The translations under genes and the position numbers were made by a program. Of a stretch of 32,102 bases of DNA, positions 5,967-22,000 are shown piece by piece. This stretch comes from Eutypella sp. D-1 (Eukaryota; Ascomycota; Sordariomycetes; Xylariales; Diatrypaceae). Below the pieces are notes generated by a model that was not told the origin of the DNA, made no database searches, and worked only from the letters and a program-made list of their open reading frames with translations. Every line of letters starts with the position of its first letter. Positions within the stretch are counted from its first letter, which is position 1. The DNA is taken from positions 1 to 32,102 of the forward strand of contig JAJTTP010000045.1 in assembly GCA_023313575.1 (NCBI GenBank), read 5' to 3'.

Positions 5967-6509
5967 TTATTTATCATTTCTTCTAGATAACTCATCTTCT
6001 AAATCTGACTTACGCTGGTTTCACTCTTGCACTTCTTCATCAGTATCTAAATCAGGTATAAGATCATCTATATTATTTATAAAACTTCTTATAGTTGTAG
6101 TACTTAATTCTCTAGGTTCTCCTGATCAAAGATCATCTGACATACCAACACTACTTCTACCATCATCATCGCTTTCTTGTTCAGAAATATCACTTGCAGC
6201 ATCTTCCCTATCTGGATCAGAATTACCCCTTTGGCTACTTCTATCATCATCTTCGCTATCTTGATCAGAATTACTACTTACATCAGAATCGCTATCTTCA
6301 TCAAAATCACCCATTTCGTCATCAGAATCGGAAGGACTTTCAGCAAAAGCTGTAGAAATAAATAAAAGAGAACATAGAAATATTATTATTAAAAGATTAA
6401 CCATAAAATTCCATACTTTTCCAAAAACCTTAGACTCTAATAAATAAAAAAAAAACCTCAAGTTTTCAAACTGGAAGTATGAATCTATCTTGAACTCTAA
6501 TCATTTATC
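5967..6509 (-). other. cob C-terminal extension: membrane segment plus acidic tail
   Basis: Cytochrome b normally ends near ENTFRDL. Here the frame continues for 180 codons to TAA 5967-5969. The first part is basic and aromatic ([18 protein letters not shown]), then a hydrophobic segment at 6342-6407 ending in ISTAFA, like a signal peptide with an A-x-A site. About 70 residues dominated by Asp, Glu and Ser follow ([16 protein letters not shown] and similar), then a charged tail ([20 protein letters not shown]). Two TGA codons in the tail read as Trp, as in the core gene, so it uses the same code. Inference: an added ninth helix that would put the acidic tail in the intermembrane space, or a tail removed after translation. 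Confidence 0.85.
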
Positions 6510-7040
6510 TAAAGAAGATAAATCTCTGAAAGTATTTTCTAGTAGACTTACAAAAGGAACTATAAATACAAATTGAGCGAAGTATAAAATAGTACTTATT
6601 TGTCCAAATTCTATAAATGGTGATTCTACATGTTTAGCACCTAATTGCATTAAAACTAAGAAATTAGCTACAAAAACAAAGAAAACTATCTTACTTAAAG
6701 GTCTAAATTGTCAACCTTTTGATCTACCAAAATCTGTAATAGGTAATAACATTATAGCTAATATCGCACTGAACATAGCAATAACACCTAATAGTTTATT
6801 AGGAATAGATCTTAATATAGCATAGAAAGGTAATAAATATCATTCAGGAACAATAGCAGGCGGTGTTTGCATTGGATTAGCCATAATGTAGTTCTCTGAA
6901 TCACCCAGGTAATTAGGCATAAAGAACACAAATAAACTTAACACAAATATAAACATAAAGATTGTTATTAAATCTTTAAATAAGAAATAAGGAGCAAAAG
7001 GTAATCTGTCATAATTACCTGATACACCTATAGGGTTACT
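5967..7040 (-). CDS. cob: cob exon 9
   Basis: Starts [15 protein letters not shown] and carries the last helices of cytochrome b plus the C-terminal tail. The preceding intron ends in G (TATGCG before AGTAACCC). It contains PPAIVPEW, the PEWY motif of the Qo site, with Trp coded by TGA. Confidence 0.95.
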
Positions 7041-10000
7041 CGCATAACCACTTCGACTGTACATTAAGCATTCTATAAAGAATACCACCGGTGGTCCAGT
7101 CTGTAGCGACCATATTTTAGACAAAGTAAGGATTAATATGCCCGACGGTCTTGTGTTAAATATATTAATCTTTGACCGTATTCACCCGGCATTGCTAAAC
7201 CAAAATATCGTTCAGATATTACGATTTAAGTTCCTCCCGGAAACTTAGAGATTCAACCTTGAATCTCACAACTACTTATATATATGTTATAATCCTAACT
7301 TGTAATGCATACTAGGTACCATATATGGCAACACTAATTTTCTGAATAAAGGGAGAGATTCTTGTTTAATATACAATTGATAATTACTATTATTTTTATG
7401 CAAGCTACTTTTTAAATTAAACTTTGAATCTAAGGCTAATGACAAAAGTTCTACCTCCTCTTTTGTAAAACAGTTAGTAGCTATTCTCACACCAGGTTTT
7501 CAAGTACCATCATCCATTATTCAAATGGCTAACGCCAAAGGTGTTAATAACTCAGAAATGTTCTTAGGTACAACTTTGACCTTATGATTAGTGTAAAACA
7601 ATTTATATAATCACATTCAACTTGAAAACCCTAGGGTACCAAAACGATATGCTTGATATGTTTTATCCCCATATTTTTGCTCAAAAAGAACAGGTAAGTT
7701 TTTAGTACAATAACCCCTTTCATATAAAAAACCATGTAGCCAGAATATATACTCCTTATGCTTTACTTGCTGTCTAAATCTTACTCTTACACCTCCGTTT
7801 TGCAATCTCTCAGCGTATCCATCCCCTAATAATGAACCTACTATAACAGAGATAACCTCCTCATTGTGAGGACCAATTCGCGTATTGGGTTTAAAATTAG
7901 GTAATATAAAAGCCAAGGTCGTCTTAAGAGATGAAAGAGCTTTCATATATAGAAATTTAGGGCCAAATAACGAAGACCCTGCAGTGTCATGGAGTCCTAT
8001 TAAGTGCATTAATGCTAATGCTGCTAAAACGACAATTATATTAAATTATAATAATAAATTTGTATGTAAGTAAATAGAATACCAAAATATATTAATAAAG
8101 ATATATTAATGCATAAAGATATCTATATCCATCTATTTAAATAGAGGCATTGCAATTTTGTTTTAACCTCATCACGACGAAGTATGCCTCCTTCTTGCAT
8201 ATGTGAAGTAAGTTATCCCACAACAAAAGGAAACAACAAAGTTTACCTTTATTATGATACAAACTGCTAATTTTAGTAGTAAAGAAAAATAAACTTAACT
8301 TTTTATTCAAAAATAAAGATGATTTTGACATAGTCTAGTAGTACTTAATAACGACAAACCAGAGTATGCACCCCTTTAAAAGAAAATATAAGCCAAGCTA
8401 TACGAAGGCACTCTTTTTTACTACAAGAAGAAGTATTATTATAAAACTGAGAACACTTATTCACTATTATATATACTAATCTTGAGGAAAATTTAGTTTT
8501 TTGTATCTGTCTGATTCCTTAAGATTATTTAACCAAGTTAAATAAGATTCTTTTTTGTAACCTATTAATGGGTAATGATTTTCAAATGAAAAAAAGTTAA
8601 TAACCTTTTGGATATCTTTAACTGCTGCCATTCGAACTAGATATGCATTATTCTTCTCTGAATAATATATTTTTCTACTTGGTTCAAACAAAAGATAGAT
8701 AGCTTTCATTAAAATACTATTTCCCTTCTGACTAATACTGAACCCTATTTCTTTATTGGCTTGTACGAAAAATGAACCTTCTGCCACTACAAAACCAACC
8801 AATCAATTGTTAAAGTATCAGACCTTTGACAAAATATCAACAGGGTTGTTAAAAACAAAAGGGCTGTAGTTAGGTATAACTTCGGGTAGTAACTCTCACT
8901 TTTTAAGATTATTTTCTAAAGTATACAAAAGTAAATTGTATTGTTTTATTCTATTATCGGTTAAGAAAAATAAATTATGTTTTAACAATAAAGGTACCAA
9001 CACATGCTTTAATTCGTAATAATATAAAACAAACTTACTGCTGTCATTATCTACTTTAACAATAGACCCGCAATGTAATTTACCTAATATATACTCTAGA
9101 GTAGACAAATCTCTATTATGAAGAGCTATAACCAAATTAAACTCTATATATCCATTAGATCTTCTTCTAGCAAAGATATAACCATCACCATCAATAACAC
9201 CAACTAAAAAAGCTAAAAAGCTAACATCCACATTAGGATGTATTAATTCCCTTTTATTAGTAACAGAAGTTTTAGTTAATTCTATTTTTTTAACTCAATA
9301 ATCGTAAGTTTTAGTTTTTAAATTATTAAATTCTGCCACTAATTCAGGAATGATAAAACATACAACATTATTATAAAGTATATCCATTAACCTAGAAACG
9401 ATATACTATCATTATCTCACGACAATGTTTAGACTATTTATTATAAATATACTTGTTATATTTTACTTTACCGTATAGTCGTTGAACCTATATACTTAAA
9501 ATTAACCTAATTATCTAATTAATATGAAAATAGATATATCTGGCTTTTATGCGAAGCGACCAATTTACAGCTATTTAGTTATTATATTAAGTATATAAGA
9601 AACTTTAATTAAACGTAGAATAAATTTTTAGTATACTTTGCTGCTTATTAACATATAGTTTTTTAACTATTTCAAAAATAATATTCTATAGTCTTTCAAG
9701 CAATTAGGTAAATTTTTATACCCCATATCTTAGCAATAAGGTAATAAAAAGTGTAAAGCAAAGAATCTATTTAAAGTGGCATTATTAACAGAGAATCCAC
9801 CTCAAATGACTTATCTTATACGTATAATGTTTAATTTATACTTTACACCTTTTGAGATGTCTTAGACTATTTCTTAAATCTTCCTAACGAAGATTTTGGG
9901 GATATCGTGTTGAGCTTATTGTTGGTATAACTCACTCATTAGTCGTTGAACGTTCTTAATCCCTTTTTATATACCGAATTAAGTTCCGCTACAAATAATT

Positions 10001-13000
10001 TAATATATCGGTGGATTGTTTTTTATTAAATGTCCTTGTAATTTTCCCCATTATGCCTCTAATAAATTTATTATTAAGGAGCCCACTGCGATTATTAATT
10101 TATATTTAGGTTACGACAAACTATCCACAATATTAATTTATTTTTGAGGGTAATTTAATTTACTATAACGTGAGCTTTCACGCAAGTTATTTAATCATTG
10201 AATATATTGTATATATTTTAACCCGATTAGAGGGTGTAAGCCAGAAAACGAGAAAAAATTTATAACTTTTTGTATATCAGATTTAGAACTGACACCAAAT
10301 TGATTATAGTTGTCAGTTGTACCTATCTTTCTACTTGTATCAAAAATTAGTTTAAAAGCCTCAAATAAATTGGAATGTATTCGTTGTTTCAATTGAAAAC
10401 AACCATCATTATTACATTTAATAAAGAATGAACCTTCTGAACAGGTGAATCCTACAATTCAATTTTTAAAAAAATATAATAATGTATAATCAAATGGATT
10501 TTTAGGTATTTCAAAAACAGCAGGTATATTATTAATACTAGGAATTTCACTATATAATTTTAGATCATTTTTCAAGATATATATAGCTAAATTAAACTGA
10601 TCTATTCTAGTATTAGTTAAAAAAAAGATTTTATTATATATAAATAATGGAAACAATACTTCTTGTAAATCAGTTTTATTAATTACTAATTTGCAAGTAG
10701 GGCTTCTTAAATCTTTATATATATTTATTTTACCTAACTTTAAAACAGAATGAATATATTCTAAAGTAGAAATATCTTCTAAATGAAGAGATAAAACTAA
10801 TTTCATGGTTATAAATCCTTTTGGTGTTTTACTTATCTGGATATATCCGTCCCCATCAATCAATCCAACTAAAAAGGCTAAAAAAGATGAAGGAATTGAA
10901 ATATAATCTTTTTTATCCAATCTTAAAGATTTATTACCTTTTTTCAACGCATTCTTATGAACAACCCCTATTGTAGGTAAAGAAGCTTCCTTGGTAAAAA
11001 CTCTTGAATATAATAAATATTTGTCTATAAAAAATAAAATAAGAATACCTAAACATAAATTAATAATAAAGTTTATGAACTCAACTATGTCCTGCCCTAT
11101 TCAAGGAATAGCACTAATAAGGTTAGTAATACAAAATTAACCAATGGCGGTTCTTAGGCAGTCGTCTATTTATAAGAATTTGATTTTAAAGAAGAGTAAA
11201 CTTTTATTCTTTTTATACATTGAGCCACTACCAGCCCTTCTTTATTTTTTACAGGTTTACCATCATTTAAACGTTGAGTTACAGTATTATCACTAATATG
11301 TAAGAATTTAGCACATGAAATTCCATTAGTAAAATAATTAAAAGAACCGTTTAAAAAATAAACTTTTATAATATAAGTAGATCGAATGTATTTTTTATTC
11401 GATATTATCATAGCTCTACCTTCAGAATCTATATGTATTAAAGGTTCTGATTTAATTAAATTACTTAACACTGATTTAAAGGTTTCATCTAAAACTACAG
11501 GATTAGAATTAGTAGATAATCTATTATTATTCATAGTATTACCTAATTTAATAATTAACTCTTTACCCTTATCAGTTAAATATTTACCTTCTAATATTAA
11601 AAAAGCTATGGTTTTAAAATCCAGATAATCCTGGAATTTTTTAGTTCTAAATTCTATACTATCAAAATAAGGTATTAATATATTACAAATAAAATCTATT
11701 TGTGAGATTTCTAAAATAGAGAAAGGTTTTTGATTATTTTTTACTACCTTTTTATCATTAATGCTGATTAGTTTAGTAGTACTACCGAGTAAATAAGAAT
11801 GTTCATCCAATAAGCTTAAAATAAATTCACGAATTCTCTCTAAAACTATTCTATTTACTGTAGTAGTAACAAGTGAAACACGTACAGACAAATCGTGTTT
11901 ATTTAAATAAAATGACCCATCTCCTTCTAATAAACCTATTAAATAGTTACCTGTAATTCTCACGCTATGATAATCAGGTAAAGAAAAATTCATTCTTTTA
12001 GTATTCATACCATCCTTTAACTCAATAATACTTGAATTAATCTCTAGTAAACTTAACTCATTATTCTTTAGGCTACGCAGAGATTTAAACATAAAAAAAG
12101 CTTTTTTAAAATCTAAATAATCCAAATATTTGGTAGTGTTTAACGGAAATTTTTCAAATATAGGAATCAATACGGATTCAATATCGCTTAGTTGAGATAT
12201 TGTAAAAACTAAAACCTCTCTTTCGGCATTTAATCTCCCGCAGCCTAAAGTATTTTTTATGAATTCTAAAGTTTTTCTATCATCTCGATGTAAATAAATT
12301 CTAAATACGAATTCAAAACCTGACACTGCTCCTTTTTCATTTTTTCTTATTCTTATCAAAAAATTAGACTCTGCTTCACAGAGGCCTACAAACCACTCAA
12401 TAAACTCAGGACGTGATTTGAGTATTTCTTTATGGACACCTTCCAATACCACATTTTTTCCACTATTAGGGCGACCTTGTAGCGAATAATTTGTGAAATA
12501 AATTTGAAAATATTTAGGTATAAAAAGTGATATTAAAAAAGTAATACAATAAACCTTTGTTTTAGCATAAAAAGAAACCCAATCATCTATTATAATTAAC
12601 CATTAAACTATGGCAGTTAGTTCCTTTAGATGATTGAAAAATTTACCTTTAAGGTGGAGGCGCGACTCTCCATATCATTAAATTTCTTTAATGTATTGGA
12701 CTATATCTTCATTCTTCGCTTATTTTATCTCAAAGCGACACTTTAAGATGAGAGAAATAAAGAATGCACCACGTAAAGTCTCTGAAGATCCCACTCATAA
12801 TTATTTAAATTACTTTGGTTTCCTGCTGATTGTCTTATTCCATATAAGAGTTTCCAGCATATAGTGGTGTTTTACTACAGCTATTACTTCGCTGTTCAAC
12901 TGTAGCCAAGTCTTTAATTTACTTAATATAGCTAAAAACTAGCTTTTTCATGTTTAAATTAAGTAAACCTCGTACTTTATGCTTATATTATAAAAATAAT

Positions 13001-16000
13001 TATAATTTAGTATAAAGCCTTCTGTCTCAATGTAGCAAGATATTAATTTTATGTTGAGAAAAGACTCCGACTGTACATTAAGCATCATTTTAGATACCCA
13101 CTAGTGACCCAGTCTGTTGCGATATTTTACTCTACCGACGGTCTCTATACTAAACAAATATATTTGACCGTTATCACTAGTATTGCTGCAATATTCTGAA
13201 AAAAAAAGGAGTTCTAAGTGAATATTACCTCACTTAATTATGCAACTATGTATAACTAATAAACCTAAAATCCAGACTGAATTCCATAACTCTCGTTTTT
13301 ATATCTTCCATAACAACCCACTCACTGGATTCCTTCCAATACGAAATCTCCGAACTAGCTCTCACACAATCCCCAGGGTTCTCCCTCAAATGCTGCTCTA
13401 CAACCCCTTCGAGTTTTTGAGCAAGCGTTTTGATTTGAGGGCGATTACGTATAATGGTTTGGGATGAAATCTTTTGAAGGGTTGGAGAACGTTTCGAATC
13501 TCGTTGTTTAAGATGTTCTCGAACTGATTTCGATCTACCGCTCAACCGTCGTGGGCCATAGCGCCATTCAACGCCATTATGATGAAGATGAGGTCTCACT
13601 AGTAAAACTTAATAAAACAATGTAAAGTGTAATAAAGAAGAGAGGAAACATACCTTCCCGGTTTGATAAGGGATTCACCGATGCATTCTTTCTATTCTGA
13701 CCCTTGCTCAATTCCACGCTATCTACATACAAGTTCGCAGTAGTAGAGCCGAGAGGATCTTCATCACTACTTGAGCCAAAACCTTCAGCTGAAGGTTTAC
13801 TCAAAGAGGTTGTTGAATCATTCAAGTTGGCAATGAATTCAGCTGAACCCTCTGATAGAGTGGTTGAAAATGCGTCACCCTTCGGAGGAAAATCGTCATT
13901 CTCCCTCTTAGGACTCCGAGGTGTGGTAGGCACGGATAGATCTCGGGTGTTGATTTGACCAAAACGGTAGGTACCCGGAACACAAGGAGGAAGATTCATG
14001 ATTAAAACAAGTACAGAAGATAGCTTGATAAACAATGAGGATGCCTGCTTGATATGGTACTTTCAGAGTAAGGAGAAATGATGAAGCTTAAATAGATATA
14101 GGGAAGGAAAAATTTAATCATTCACGAACGATGACGCTTCAGAATGATGAATCATTATATCCCCATTTTACGTATTCTTATCTAGGATCTAGATCTGCCA
14201 AGATTACCCTACCCCTCGTGTATGGCCAATAGCAATAGATAAGCATAAACAAATCACATGGCAAAATCTACCATCCATCACACACCATATTCGATATACC
14301 TCATAATCATACCGCATAAACCCCTCAAAGATCAACCTAATCACCTCATCATTCATGAGTCACATGATAAATAATCTAGCAATCTTATTCGTGGTTTCAT
14401 TTTGAATTGCTAGATCCATTCTGCTTATGACGATCATTGAGTCATAAAACAAGGATCTTTCAGGAAAACAGGTTGGCTTATCTAGGACCTAGATATGCCA
14501 AGACATCTTACATCTATATATATCCAATGAAAACTCTTTTTGGCATTTACTCACTATCTAATACGAGATCAACCTTGTCATATTCCATACACTTCATTAT
14601 TGCCGCTTACTCTCACACAAACCACCATCACATTGCCTATTCTACCAATAAAAGATGAAATGACGCATCCCTTACATACAAATCATACGATAAAGACCAC
14701 TTGATAGATTTAGCTGCCTAATACGAGATGATCGTCGAGGTTTATTAGCATTAGTCACACTTGTTTCGGAGGAAGAAAAAGTGCGGATCATGACGCGTAA
14801 TCCTCCTTGTCATCATGGATCAGGCGAATACTCTAGCCAATCATTAACATTATTTCTCCTTTCAATTTAGCCACCTCCATATGCGGAGATCATTCCTAAA
14901 CTAAACTTTTAGTCTTGTGATAGCTGATCAACCAATAGATTAACCGAGATAAATGAAGATCCTCCTTAGCATTTCCCCACTATCAAATACGAGATCACAT
15001 GCTGCTCACCTAGCCGCGAGCGCATATTCCTTGAACTACCTCGCATAAATCCCTCAATCTTCTAACCAATCATATTTATTATTTCCTTATCTCTTGTTTC
15101 ATTTTTGATCATCTGCCCTCTTTACCTAATGACCATGAAATCATGCAGATCCATAATGAGTCAAGGAAAGGAATCTCGGAGAACCCCGATACCTCAGATC
15201 TTGCTTAGAAATCCAACAGAATTTTACATGTGATATTCGAAAAAAATAGTATATAAGTTGAAGCTACCTCGTATGGTTTTCTTTATCCTACTTCAATTTA
15301 CAGAATTACAATTATCCAACATTCCAGACAAACACGATACTTCTTTAAGTAGACTCCAGATAATACATTACCTTACTTAGATCATCAACCCTCAAAATGT
15401 CTTCTTATCCTACTATTGATATTCAGACCACTTACCCCATGATTAATGATCAACTCGACCTACCTATTTATACCGACCGCCTTATCATTAGAGCATTACA
15501 AAGTTCGGATCTTCTGGCATATCACAGCCTCCTGACTGATAAAGGAGCTATGAGGAACGAGCCCTTATCCCCAGACCTCTCGTACACTGAAAATGTCTTC
15601 CCAACTCCGCCCGGCGAAGCGGCAGAAGATGATCTATGGTTGGGTATCTTCCTCAAAGAACCAAACAATAGGGAAGGGAACCTGATTGGTGACGGCGGGG
15701 TGTACTATTTACTTCTCAGCACTGAATGGCCAAATTTGAGCTATCGCATCAAAGAACAGTACTGGAACAGAGGATACGCCACTGAGTTCGTGAGGGCTTT
15801 CATGAGATTTTGGTGGAGAATCCCTCGTCACCGTCAACTTAAAAACCTCACGATTCATCCAGCTACTCTGAATGCCCAGGACTCTCCTGACCAAGAGGTT
15901 AGAGAACGAGTGTATATATCCGTCACCCATGGGAATTCGGCAAATCAAAAGGTGTTGACCAAGGCAGGATTTGAGAAATTTGAAGGTATGGGGGAAGGAA

Positions 16001-19000
16001 CCACTCATTGGCGACAAATCCGGGAAAACTAGCACTTATGGAAATTACAAATTGGTTTTTCATACCGAATACGGAGAGTATAAAAGCAGATTGTCTTAGG
16101 TTCTAATTGAAGGGTAAAAAGATTAAGAAGGGATTCACGATACGTATTATAAGATAGTATTCATTCCTTGACTAGTTTAGCCCCCTACTTTATCCCTAAA
16201 GAAATCACCCGGAGGGATCAGGGTCAGAAGCATGCGACCCCAGCTCTGTTGGTTTACAGGAGACGGAGGTACAACACCTACTAGATGTCAATCATCCTGA
16301 TTTATTAGTTATACATTTGAGGCGATTTATATATTCTTTTTTACATAAGAAATTTATTTTATAAAATAAGTATGGTCTAGTTTAGTCTAATAGTGTCTTT
16401 ATACCTTTTACTGTTTTTAAATAAGTCATTCATTATATTGAATAAGTTTATAACAACTGACTGCATATAAAATAGTATCAGAAGCAGAAAAAAAGTTCAC
16501 TACTTTTTGTGCATACGAAGTTAGCGGATCCGTTTTTGAATTAAAAATTAACTGATAGCAATTAGAAGAATCAACCTTTATATTAGGTTCTCTATTTGCA
16601 ATCAATACACATTTCGCTTTAATAATATTGTAATTTTCAATACCTTTTTGCTTAATTTGACAGAAAACAGAACCTATAGCTTTAAGACCAGAAGAACATT
16701 CGGCTATTGTAAAACCTGCCAATCAATAAGGAAAGGAACTTCAATTCAGGATTTATTGAACTGAAAAATTAGTAGGCGGAGCCTCGTAAAATTCACATTT
16801 TCCCAATGTACTATATTATTATCTATAATGTAATTAAATAGAGCTAATTGATTATACCTGTTAGCAGTTAAAAATTGTAAATCATATTCTTTAAAGGTAT
16901 AATTACAGTAGTTAAATCCTTTTTTGTGCGAAGCGAACATTAATCTTATTTTATTAACTGAATCCAAATTAGAAATAGAACCACACCTAAAACTTTAGTT
17001 AAATAAGTTAGAAGAGATACATCTATTGAATGTAATCTAATAACTAAACGTGCTCTGATTGTACTCCTAGGAGTATTACCAGATTTATTATACTGTTTTT
17101 GAGGACCTATTTCAATATAACCATCACCATCAAAAAGACCCAGGACAAAACCTATTACAAAACTCCTAATAAAATCCATAAACTTATTTATTCAACTTCG
17201 ACTTAAGCTTACTCATCCTGACTGCACCTTGAGGGGTTAAATGTTCTCCTGTATTTAGCATAGTTACAATTTCTTTTCACACATAAAAATGTAATAATTT
17301 ATTTCCTGCGCCTCCTCTTCCCCTAATCCAAAGGATAAGGGGGACCGAAAAATTTACCGGAGGATAAGGGTCCTAAAGGATAATTATTAAAGTGGGGTAA
17401 TATTGTATTACCCAGATCTGATCTCTTACTTACTCTAAAGTAACTAGCCTGACCAGTTTTATGATTACTAATTAGTAGGGTTATTTTTTTTATTCTTTTT
17501 ATTCTATAGTATATTAAATTAAGAAATATTACAAAATTTAAGTGCCGGCTCATAAAAAGAATAAAAAAAAAAAATTCACCCACTAAACCTCCAAAGAAAT
17601 TTTGAATTCTATTTAATAAAACAAACTCCTTTTCATGTTAACTTTATAATAAGCTTGAAATTGTTTACTATTGGCACTTTCTGAGATATAAAATGAAGAA
17701 TCACCATCAGAAAATCCTGTAACTCAATTAGGATCTAAGGGTAAATTTAAATTATTGCTCTCTAATGGGACTTATACGGCGGAGTACTCCACATTTGGAA
17801 AGTTTTATTTTAAACCAGGAGCAAGTCCATTATTAAGTCCGATCTTCATCGAGACAATTTTAAGAGTGAAACGCCCCCTAATAAATTAGGCCATTAAAAA
17901 CCCAAAAATCAATAAAAAACTAAAATCTAAATTCAATCTCTCAATTTTGTATAATACTTAAACCCCCGCTGTAAGAATGCAGCGGGGGTTTAAGATTTGA
18001 TTTTTTATTGATTTTTAACCCTAGGCTTTTGCCTAACCTTCAGTTAGCTAAAGATAAGCCGAAGGCTAGCTTCGCTTATCCTGATCCCGAAGGGATATGG
18101 ATCGGAAAAAGGAGGTCTTGAGTAAAATGTTCCTGATTAACCATAAGGTTAACAATGGCTTTTCATATACTATAATTAAGAAATTTAGCACTTTGTAAAG
18201 GATAACGTTCAAAATGAGGGATAAGATAGTCTGTAAAATAAATTAATTTATTTACATTAAATGAGGCTTTATTTCTTTTCTCATCTATTACAATACTACC
18301 TACACCCCCCCCCAAAAAAAATATTGTTGAATTAATAATAAAAGAGGTAAATCTTTTTTATCTAGATATATATCAAATCTAGCATTAACTCGTCAACCAA
18401 GGTTATTAGCGGATCTTTTAATAATACTTATTTGAAATGATGATTAAGCACCACCAAACCCTGCGATATATCAGGGGTTTAGTATAGCCATAAATTTCTT
18501 ATAAGGCTTTGGAACAGAGGTTCCCTTACCTGTAGAATAATAAAATTTTTCACCTCATAGACTCATCTGCCCGTAGGGCAATACATACAAACTTACTTAT
18601 TAACAAGTTATGTATAATAAGCTAGAATAACTTTAAATTCGTATATTCTATTAGTTAAATCAATTTAACCAAAAGTTCCGCCTGTGCATTAAACAGCATT
18701 TCAGCCACCCATTAGTGACCCAGTCTGTCGCGATCATTTATATGACCGACGATCTTAAAGCTTAAACTTCTTTGATCGTTTTCACTAACATCGCCAAATA
18801 ATCTTAAAGACTATTCTATATCCTCGTCAGGATATACCACTTTAATCTTTCTTTCTCTATAAAAATTGCAGAAAGATTGTTACTCATGGAACTATAATTT
18901 AATATAAAAATAAAGTATAATAAAATATTGAGAATAAAATAACTATTTACTTGAAATCTTTTACTATTCATTGTCTTTTTACTAATCCTTTTTCTGTTTT

Positions 19001-22000
19001 TAATGCTCTTCTAATTGTTTTTTCGTCACAGTTTATAGATTTAGCTGCAGCTAAAATAGTAGAATATTTACCGTAAACAGTTCCATTCAAATTATACAAG
19101 ACAACAGGTCTTGTATTAGTTATACACTTTTGTTTAGTTACATCTAACATAGGAGGTCTATTTAAAGCCTTTTCTCTCATTTTTTCTATTGTTTCAGGAG
19201 AAAACTTTTTACCTTTGTTTAGATTACCGATTCTTTCACGTCTAGCGTCACTATAAATATCTTTCATTTTTTGACGATCAATTTCAGTGTGTTTGTAACC
19301 AAAACTAGAACCTGCTTCTGTCAAAATATTATAGTTAGGGACTAACAATTTTAAATATTTATCTTCTAAATCCAATAATTCTTTGTTATTTTCCTGAGTA
19401 ACAATATTAGGATATAAATCTAATACAATAAAAGCAAAATTTCTCAAATCATATTTTCTAATCGCTAACTTAACTATTTTGCTACCTCTGAAATAAATAA
19501 CATGATTACTGAATCTAGCGTAAAATCTATTAGTTGCCGCAGAACCTATATAATAGTCTTTAGTTACTTTATTAACTATAATATATATACCGCTTAAACC
19601 TCTAGTGTCGCTTAAAATCTGTTTTCTAGTTTCTTCTAAATTTAATTTTTCATAAACATACACTGGCTTTAAACCTAATTCTTGAAGAATTGTTTTTAGT
19701 CTTTCAGAAATTTCAATATTATCAGAAGGACGACTTGTACAATATCCTCTTTTTACTATGCTTTGATTAAACAGTCTATTATTGTTTACTTTGTTATATT
19801 TTATTATAACCCCTTTATTACTTATATTAAATCATTTTGGGCTATATTCATAACCCAGGAAAGCTGTAGCCACCATAAGTATAAATATAACAGTACCTAT
19901 AGCTCAAACTAATGTTCTTGGATATCTATAAGATCCGTAATATATACCTCTACCTATGTGTAAATAGACCAAAAAGAAAAAAGCAGACGCAGTGTTACTA
20001 TGTAAGTAACGAATAAACCAACCATTAGAGACATCACGCATAATCATAGGTTACAAATATTAAACAACAAATTATCATCTACTATAATCTAATCCCTAGA
20101 CGCTCTATCTATGGGCTTAGATGTGTAAATATATTTATTTTTATAAAGTCTATTTGTATCAATATAACGATTACAAGTATTACTACTAGGTTTTAATCCT
20201 AATGCCTTATGTGCTGAACTGAATGAAGTAAATGGCGATCCAGTTACCATTTCATTATTAACATAAATATAAACAATCTTAGGATTTTCAGATCTATTTT
20301 TTATACTATATTTACGCACATTCTCCGTATGTGGTATATTAAGTTTTACACAAAAAGGAGAATCTTTTTGCATAATATTCTTAAATCTTTCAGTTATATT
20401 ATTAATAACTTCATTAGTATCACTAACGGATGGATATGTACTATATCTTTTATTGATAATTCCTGCAATATCTAAAAATAAATTCTTACCTTCTGTTGTA
20501 TAATAATATCCATAAATCTTCAATAATAAAGCCATTCTTCATAATTTAAAATCTATCTCTTTACGAGAATAAAATTTAGATGAATCTAAAAACGGCAATA
20601 AATAATAGTATAAAGCATCTGTGTTAGCAATAGCTAATGATACCACATTAGTTCTTACATTAATAGTATTTGTAATGTTAATAGGTAGGATTTTACTATC
20701 AGGATCATTATTATATGTTCTAGCATTACTTGACAAGTTTAACAAAAAATTTGTTATACCATTTAAACATTCTTGACTTGTATTTTTCTGTGCTACTTGA
20801 AAATATAAAGAAGACCCTGTTTTAATTCCGAAAGTACCTTCACCTTCTATGAATCCTATGAATCAATTTGGGTTTATTATAATTTGAGATTTCGAAGCAC
20901 CATATGTGAAAATTTCTCTTTTAGAATTCATACTGTTTTTAATAGATACAATTTTTTTCATATCTACATCAGATATTGCTTTATTAGTAGCTTTTATAAG
21001 TGAAACTTCATAAAAACTAAGAAAGTCTAATTTTTTACTGGTACGAAGAGGGTAATGATTAAATATATCACATAATTTATCTATATTTAAAGAATCTTCG
21101 ACAATAAAAGAACAACTATTTCTACTGTTTTCTTCAACTATTCTACCAAAACCTAAATTAGATTCAATAGTATGAAGTACTTTTACATCATCAATATGCA
21201 AGCTAATTTTAAATCTTAATTTCACATATTTACTAGGATCGGCGTTTAAAAAAATAACCAACCTAAAATCTTAAGTATTATATAAAATTAATAAGTTAAA
21301 TTTAGATTTTAGTTGGTTATTTTTTTCACCGCAGGAGCCTCTCAATTGAAACTAAAAAATTACCTTCCGCTCTTCCCCGGAGGGGAACAGGTAAACCCGC
21401 TAAATCAGTATAAAAAGTCCTTATTTGTAAAGTTGTCCCTTTGTACGTAAAAGTTTTCATTTAAACAAGTTGTAAAGTTACGAAATCCCATTTTATTTTT
21501 AGAACCCGATACATAAATAAACAATGCTAAAATTATGCCCTCAAAAAGGCATAGACAGATAATCTGAACTACTCTACTTCACAGCAGAGATTGGACTATA
21601 TCATCACCTAGATTTAGTTCTAAATCTGATGTCAGGCGTATTAGTCTCTGAAGATCCCCCCGGGGACATAATACACATATACGTTGGTTTCCTGCTGATT
21701 GCCTTAGCAATTATAAGGTTTTCCAGCAATTAGCCCGATTTAAAGAGCACATTATGTTATATATTCAACTAAATTACATGCTTATATATATTAGGATTAG
21801 TGAACTAGAATAATATTTATCAACTTAGTGTGTTTTATCTAAAAAGAACTATTATGAATAGAAAAAAGGGGGAGATGGACGATTATTATCTCTATATGTA
21901 CTTAGTAACCCCCGGATTTCTATAGTGTTTAAATTTTCTAAATCAGGAGAAATTTCCACAGCATATTCCTCAAAGCCAGTAAAAATTTTTAGGTCAAATA

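Follow-up and report, generated by a model that had tools for sequence, protein, structure and literature searches.

Contig C40 of Eutypella sp. D-1, 32,102 bases from an assembly of 48.5 Mb in 72 contigs, was analyzed over its full length (the window), with a focus on a GC-richer block that lies inside an intron of the mitochondrial gene cob and carries two divergent genes, namely GNAT1, which encodes an N-acetyltransferase, and gene B, which has two exons. In the most probable reading, the block came from a nucleus and is a passenger that is not expressed; specifically, we consider it roughly 65% probable that about 2.8-3.2 kb of fungal nuclear DNA was inserted into the group I intron that follows cob residue 143 and persists there little adapted and unexpressed, with selection on GNAT1 possible. 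The codon use of GNAT1 and gene B is clearly non-mitochondrial, the spacer between them is only intermediate in composition, and the block has a mitochondrial location on each contig where the site was found.

Two divergent genes in a GC-richer block

GC content is about 0.30 in the window and rises at 13.2-16.1 kb, with a value of 0.400 in 13206-16150 versus 0.263 in 10000-13000 and 0.298 in 16500-20000. The intact GNAT1 gene (plus strand) and the divergent two-exon gene B (minus strand) together occupy 13246-16032. The left edge of the block falls within 13180-13246, between the end of similarity to another intron core (13180) and the end of the gene B stop codon (13246), and the right edge falls somewhere in 16033-16417. 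These edges are compatible with the GC-richer block at 13206..16150 described in an earlier note on this DNA, and the content which that note reported, i.e., an intact GNAT gene and a divergent gene with a GT-AG intron inside a cob intron, was confirmed. The features of the block are as follows.

15397..16032, plus strand: GNAT1, intact RimJ/RimL-type N-acetyltransferase gene of 211 amino acids, antisense to cob (open reading frame, Pfam, predicted fold)
14000..15396, no strand: upstream region common to both divergent genes, GC 0.366
13654..13999, minus strand: gene B exon 1, 115 codons plus 1 nt, five relatives
13599..13653, minus strand: gene B intron, 55 nt, GTATGT...TAG, putatively of spliceosomal type
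13246..13598, minus strand: gene B exon 2 with TAG stop, four relatives, same C-terminus in all

GNAT1 agrees with the RimJ/RimL type of the GNAT family in both profile and fold. It matches Pfam Acetyltransf_3 (PF13302) with an E-value of 7.2e-21 over profile positions 1-138 of 138 and with a score of 75.8 bits versus a cut-off of 25.4; an AlphaFold model built from a 14-row alignment reached a pLDDT of 89.6 and a pTM of 0.88, and its best Foldseek matches were solved GNAT enzymes (query TM about 0.5-0.6). An NCBIfam scan of GNAT1 returned nothing, and a scan of the other three proteins returned only matches far below the cut-offs. The gene is intron-free and encodes tryptophan by TGG only (6 TGG, 0 TGA), and TATATAAG was recognized by eye approximately 140 nt upstream. 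GNAT1 is on the plus strand and cob on the minus strand, such that GNAT1 does not read in the sense direction of an expressed, intron-encoded open reading frame; based on this antisense position and on the start region, expression of GNAT1 is probably absent. The suggestion that neither gene could work under mitochondrial rules applies to gene B, which would need splicing, but is not supported for GNAT1, which has no intron and violates no mitochondrial code rule, even if it lies antisense to cob.

Joining of the two exons of gene B yields a single frame of 232 amino acids with no TGA codon, and both exon frames recur among the relatives (five for exon 1, four for exon 2). In a fitted alignment of read-through tails with the window intron, 53 of 55 specified positions agreed for P0031 and 52 of 53 for P0032, while the longer tail of P0033 agreed at 45 of 49 positions with 23 gap positions; tail agreement and the length difference in P0033 would fit an intron in gene B. 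That the intron is so well kept in P0031 and P0032 hints at weak constraint on the gene B protein. Gene B shows no known domain: Pfam returned no match for exon 2 of the window, for the frame of exon 1, or for P0029, and a single sub-threshold match for P0035, another gene B relative. Truncation of gene B at the junction was considered and rejected, since the C-terminus is kept in all four exon 2 relatives. Mitochondria have no spliceosome, and gene B would therefore not be spliceable there.

Mitochondrial location and host intron

A DNA search with 13150-16250 gave eight matches, every contig concerned aligns with the others as mitochondrial DNA (mtDNA), and the part of C36 that the other matching contigs leave uncovered bears mitochondrial genes. 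Both junctions are spanned by five contigs (C40, C41, C42, C46, and C60), which differ from each other in indels. At the left junction, six of six contigs agree letter for letter over 121 nt; at the right junction, six of seven do so over 301 nt, with C60 differing. All six full-length matches to the left flank (among 30 matches) and all seven to the right flank (among 62 matches, with 40 of 68 candidates scored) continue into the block, the remaining matches listed being short repeats. Neither an empty site in the 48.5-Mb assembly nor any part of the block on a contig outside the matching set was found.

These data bear on the alternative that nuclear and mitochondrial sequences were joined chimerically during assembly. 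The assembly does contain many redundant mitochondrial contigs, and three contigs (C36, C59, and C62) end at 13975/13976, within the block; nevertheless, indel-differing contigs cross both junctions, every full-length flank match enters the block, and contigs likewise end together at 1356, 10945, and 32102, which weakens the interpretation of the 13975/13976 break as a fork between nucleus and mitochondrion. We thus rejected an assembly chimera on the basis of the block search, the contig alignment, and the flank matches; judged from assembled contigs, it is very improbable, and the doubt that the earlier note had raised on this point is disfavored.

The host of the block is an intron of cob, which is encoded on the minus strand. 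With cob exons assembled by eye, G143 is the last residue of an exon that ends at 18552, and the next long exon begins within codon 146, near 11131. The 7,460 bases searched between these exons contain a single match to GCNACNGT, at 12906-12899; as approximately 0.5 matches are expected by chance by our own estimate, this match alone is weak evidence. When it is read as the micro-exon GCTACAGT, A-T-V is restored, and pairing by hand yields a P1 of 7 bp in which the splice site falls at a U.G pair; 12899-12906 is probably an 8-nt micro-exon. This reading implies two introns, one at 18551-12907 behind residue 143 and another at 12898-11132 inside codon 146. We read 13179-13066 as the cob-143 intron's own ID core. 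Along 114 aligned columns it shares 75% identity with part of the preceding cob intron (18787-18677), and it has shorter matches at other mitochondrial places; the block sits directly upstream. An Rfam search of 13066-13179 found no group I match. The predicted fold of 12900-13215 was somewhat more stable than those of shuffled sequences (z-score -1.90; 4 of 100 shuffles as good). Placement of the block inside a cob intron, as previously proposed, holds, but the group I core said to lie beside it, as that of cob intron 4, is the Rfam core that belongs to the following intron, behind the probable micro-exon; the block itself occupies the cob-143 intron and precedes the stretch read as that intron's own core. 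The features around the block are as follows.

12907..18551, minus strand: group I intron following cob residue 143, host of the block, by exon reading; 3' end dependent on the micro-exon reading
13066..13179, minus strand: cob-143 intron core, read as group ID; 75% identical to part of the preceding cob intron
12899..12906, minus strand: probable 8-nt micro-exon GCTACAGT (A144, T145, start of V146)
12676..12935, minus strand: group I core of the cob-146 intron, Rfam RF00028, 84 bits, unlisted when faster filters were used
11166..12452, minus strand: LAGLIDADG endonuclease open reading frame of the next intron (cob-146), Pfam E-value 3.8e-30
16417..16722, minus strand: short remnant of an endonuclease-like open reading frame in the right flank, by eye
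13248..13263, no strand: left arm of a 16-nt perfect inverted repeat, at the end of gene B
16301..16316, no strand: right arm of the same repeat, in the right flank

When the two junction windows were shuffled 2000 times, an inverted repeat of this length never arose; after shuffling of the full 3.6 kb, however, 20 of 200 sequences contained a perfect inverted repeat of at least 16 nt, hairpins included, and BLAST against the eight contigs gave an E-value of 0.069. The repeat is perhaps a trace of end joining, for which it is suggestive at best. The spacer between the genes contains diverged direct repeats (14177-14203/14477-14503, 93%; 14526-14571/14952-14997, 80%). A tRNA scan with the bacterial code found no genes, a plasmid tblastn gave no match, and three viral-contig scans found no relatives.

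Three further observations concern cob and the host intron. The intron lies directly behind G143, followed by the probable micro-exon, and G143 is the residue of resistance to quinone outside inhibitor (QoI) fungicides. Introns have been described as blocking the QoI-resistance mutation at G143 in the part of PMC8393795 consulted. The last cob frame (5967-6600, minus strand) continues beyond the Pfam cytochrome b domain with a hydrophobic stretch and then an acidic low-complexity tail. Finally, elements of approximately 90-110 nt at about 17460-18115 recur on many other contigs with 87-98% identity and are probably mobile mitochondrial repeats.

Composition, relatives, and source

GC content at third codon positions (GC3) is 0.474 in GNAT1, 0.452 in GNAT2 (a second mitochondrial acetyltransferase gene, described below), and 0.369 in gene B, compared to 0.141-0.198 in five mitochondrial frames, 0.295 in an aminotransferase gene on C36, and 0.829 in the nuclear GNAT gene on C12. 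The GC3 of GNAT1 is also below that of all 15 sampled host nuclear open reading frames (0.513-0.877; at least 200 amino acids each, some perhaps spurious). With a tetramer score trained on mtDNA and on 34,176 nuclear bases (nine loci, eight chosen by an arbitrary pattern), all ten 150-nt GNAT1 windows (starts 15451 to 15901) exceeded the 99th percentile of 473 mitochondrial windows, and nine of the ten were below the nuclear median; the 1.4-kb spacer scored only intermediate between nuclear and mitochondrial DNA. The GNAT1 frame and, after joining, both exon frames of gene B are intact and have no TGA, which supports insertion of nuclear DNA. TGA is likewise absent from GNAT2 and occurs once in the C36 aminotransferase.

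Twenty-eight proteins match GNAT1, including P0001, a 211-amino-acid relative with one residue different. Relationships were assessed in a 31-row tree that comprised all of these relatives except P0001 (27 proteins) along with GNAT1, both halves of GNAT2, and the host C12 gene; of its 28 inner branches, 12 are well supported and 10 drawn open, and GNAT2a and C12 are long rows. GNAT1 clusters with P0002 and P0010 (support 100/100) and is part of a 15-row group (99/98) that includes proteins of Cadophora gregata, Hyaloscypha finlandica, and Pseudofabraea citricarpa; the longest contigs bearing these proteins are 2.5 Mb for C. gregata and 0.84 Mb for H. finlandica. P0017 of Annulohypoxylon stygium, both Hirsutella thompsonii proteins, and the host C12 gene are outside this group. 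The ratio of AT-coded to GC-coded residues is 1.08 in GNAT1, 2.05 in P0017, and 0.67 and 0.74 in two Xylariaceae proteins.

A number of findings weigh against nuclear origin of a little-adapted passenger. A nuclear copy of the block genes was sought in the 48.5-Mb assembly and none was found, and a search for the CTNAY branch motif in the gene B intron was also negative (four weaker TTTAY words are present). Composition is only intermediate (GC 0.40 in the block and 0.366 in the spacer, versus 0.520 in the host nuclear sample). TGA counts in the five mitochondrial frames are 9, 5, 1, 0, and 0, and as two of these frames also lack TGA, its absence alone proves little. The matching contigs share ends and hence are not independent molecules. 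Finally, an acetyltransferase occurs at the same site in A. stygium (PMC6140425, consulted in part), making long residence conceivable.

Transfer from the host's own nucleus, as proposed previously along with a search of that strain's nuclear genome for both genes at high identity, is not borne out: the best host nuclear relative is the C12 gene with 34% identity, the GC3 of GNAT1 is below that of the host frames, and the nearest named relatives are in other fungi. A fresh copy of a host nuclear gene is weakened as a candidate by the missing copy and the unlike composition, and nothing points to a mitochondrion that archives nuclear DNA. Due to the missing nuclear copy, the GC3, and the nearest relatives, there is room for nuclear DNA from a foreign source or for a transfer at an earlier time; the source may have been an ancestor of the host or another fungus. 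A related alternative is that intron and cargo arrived together by horizontal transfer, through intron homing, from another fungus whose mtDNA already held the nuclear piece. Consistent with this, the host has no nuclear copy, GC content is between that of host nucleus and mtDNA, and GNAT1 groups with P0002 and P0010 and, at a wider level, with proteins of Cadophora and Hyaloscypha that are encoded on long contigs, whereas it does not group with the C12 gene; however, the endonuclease in the cob-143 intron looks decayed, and we regard such a transfer as decidedly unlikely.

A different alternative is that GNAT1 is an old functional mitochondrial acetyltransferase at cob-143, of common ancestry with that of A. 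stygium, under selection and expressed in mitochondria. The intron site and the four transferase intervals are shared with A. stygium (PMC6140425, in part), the predicted fold of GNAT1 is intact, no code rule is broken, and P0001 differs by a single residue. On the other hand, the GC3, the missing TGA codons, the nuclear-style start, and the presence of gene B do not resemble long residence, P0017 is in another part of the tree and richer in AT-coded residues, and GNAT1 is antisense to cob; we thus consider an old functional locus unlikely.

Under the preferred explanation of a nuclear insert, a piece of presumably nuclear DNA with two complete divergent genes and their common upstream region would have entered a mitochondrion and been joined into the cob-143 group I intron, just upstream of the core, while the intron endonuclease was decaying. 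The intron presumably still splices, such that the cargo would be removed with it, would cost little, and could persist, while GNAT1, antisense to cob and with a nuclear-style start region, would be unexpressed.

Comparison with other mitochondrial transferases

GNAT1 is not the only transferase gene in this mitochondrial genome. Among 15 PF13302 matches in the genome, eight are on mitochondrial contigs (seven GNAT1, one GNAT2) and seven on other contigs. GNAT2 (C36:37763-38995; locus L031 7763-8995) has 410 codons plus stop, encodes a tandem two-domain protein, and lies between cox2 and nad5; it contains 8 TGG and no TGA, and its start, with TATAAAT and the CACCATCGCCATGG context, appears nuclear-style by eye. 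As GNAT2 was found on contig C36 alone, its location is less supported than that of GNAT1. Class-III aminotransferase genes are present at C36:23973-25244 (between atp9, identified by eye, and cox2) and C33:13315-14586 (between atp6 and rns), with one and three in-frame TGA codons, respectively. Little-adapted (GNAT1, GNAT2) and more adapted (aminotransferase) cases thus stand side by side in one mitochondrial genome.

A. stygium mtDNA, as described in the portion of PMC6140425 consulted, has transferases in four intervals; one of these is the cob intron at residue 143 (cob-i3, given as "ID; IB" in the intron table), which holds an acetyltransferase. Common to both fungi are an N-acetyltransferase in the cob-143 intron and downstream of cox2, a class-III aminotransferase between atp9 and cox2, and an aminotransferase-like sequence between atp6 and rns; the same intervals indicate that the feature described here belongs to a known set. 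The A. stygium aminotransferase gene has two short introns (PMC6140425, same portion). The two fungi differ in that P0017, which could be either of the two A. stygium copies, has an AT-rich-type N-terminus and is elsewhere in the tree, and in that the consulted portion of PMC6140425 mentions no divergent neighbor gene; the cob copies are matched by site rather than by orthology.

Other fungal mtDNA with acetyltransferase genes includes that of Dematophora necatrix (nat1; PMC11404375) and Stemphylium lycopersici (orf217; PMC5626475), and a nuclear origin has been proposed for such genes from phylogeny (PMC11277600), each of these sources being covered in part; the word "acetyltransferase" is absent from the covered text of PMC4162613, PMC7424523, and PMC8672057. 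With genes published in several fungi, and in A. stygium even at cob-143 (partial coverage of PMC6140425, PMC11404375, and PMC5626475), the view that whole nuclear-type genes in mitochondria are rare is not supported for acetyltransferases. Like the published cases, GNAT1 encodes a GNAT enzyme and resides in mtDNA; it lies in a cob intron and GNAT2 downstream of cox2, and the block is a little-adapted example of known mitochondrial N-acetyltransferase cargo. It is conceivable, if quite unlikely, that fixed landing sites (the cob-143 intron and the region downstream of cox2) repeatedly and independently capture nuclear acetyltransferases, with a mobile group I intron then moving the two genes from one species to another; in that case, nuclear DNA would reach mitochondria recurrently and in a site-biased manner.

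Among titles and abstract openings, with most subscription papers outside this coverage, we found no description of a gene with a spliceosomal intron beside a mitochondrial acetyltransferase gene. In comparison with D. necatrix and S. lycopersici, as far as the consulted parts of those papers go, the source's neighbor gene, its intron, and the start regions are still visible here. What is new is thus the retention of a neighbor gene, a spliceosomal-type intron, and a nuclear-style start region, without TGA tryptophan codons, and these retained features make the nuclear origin of a mitochondrial acetyltransferase gene directly testable.

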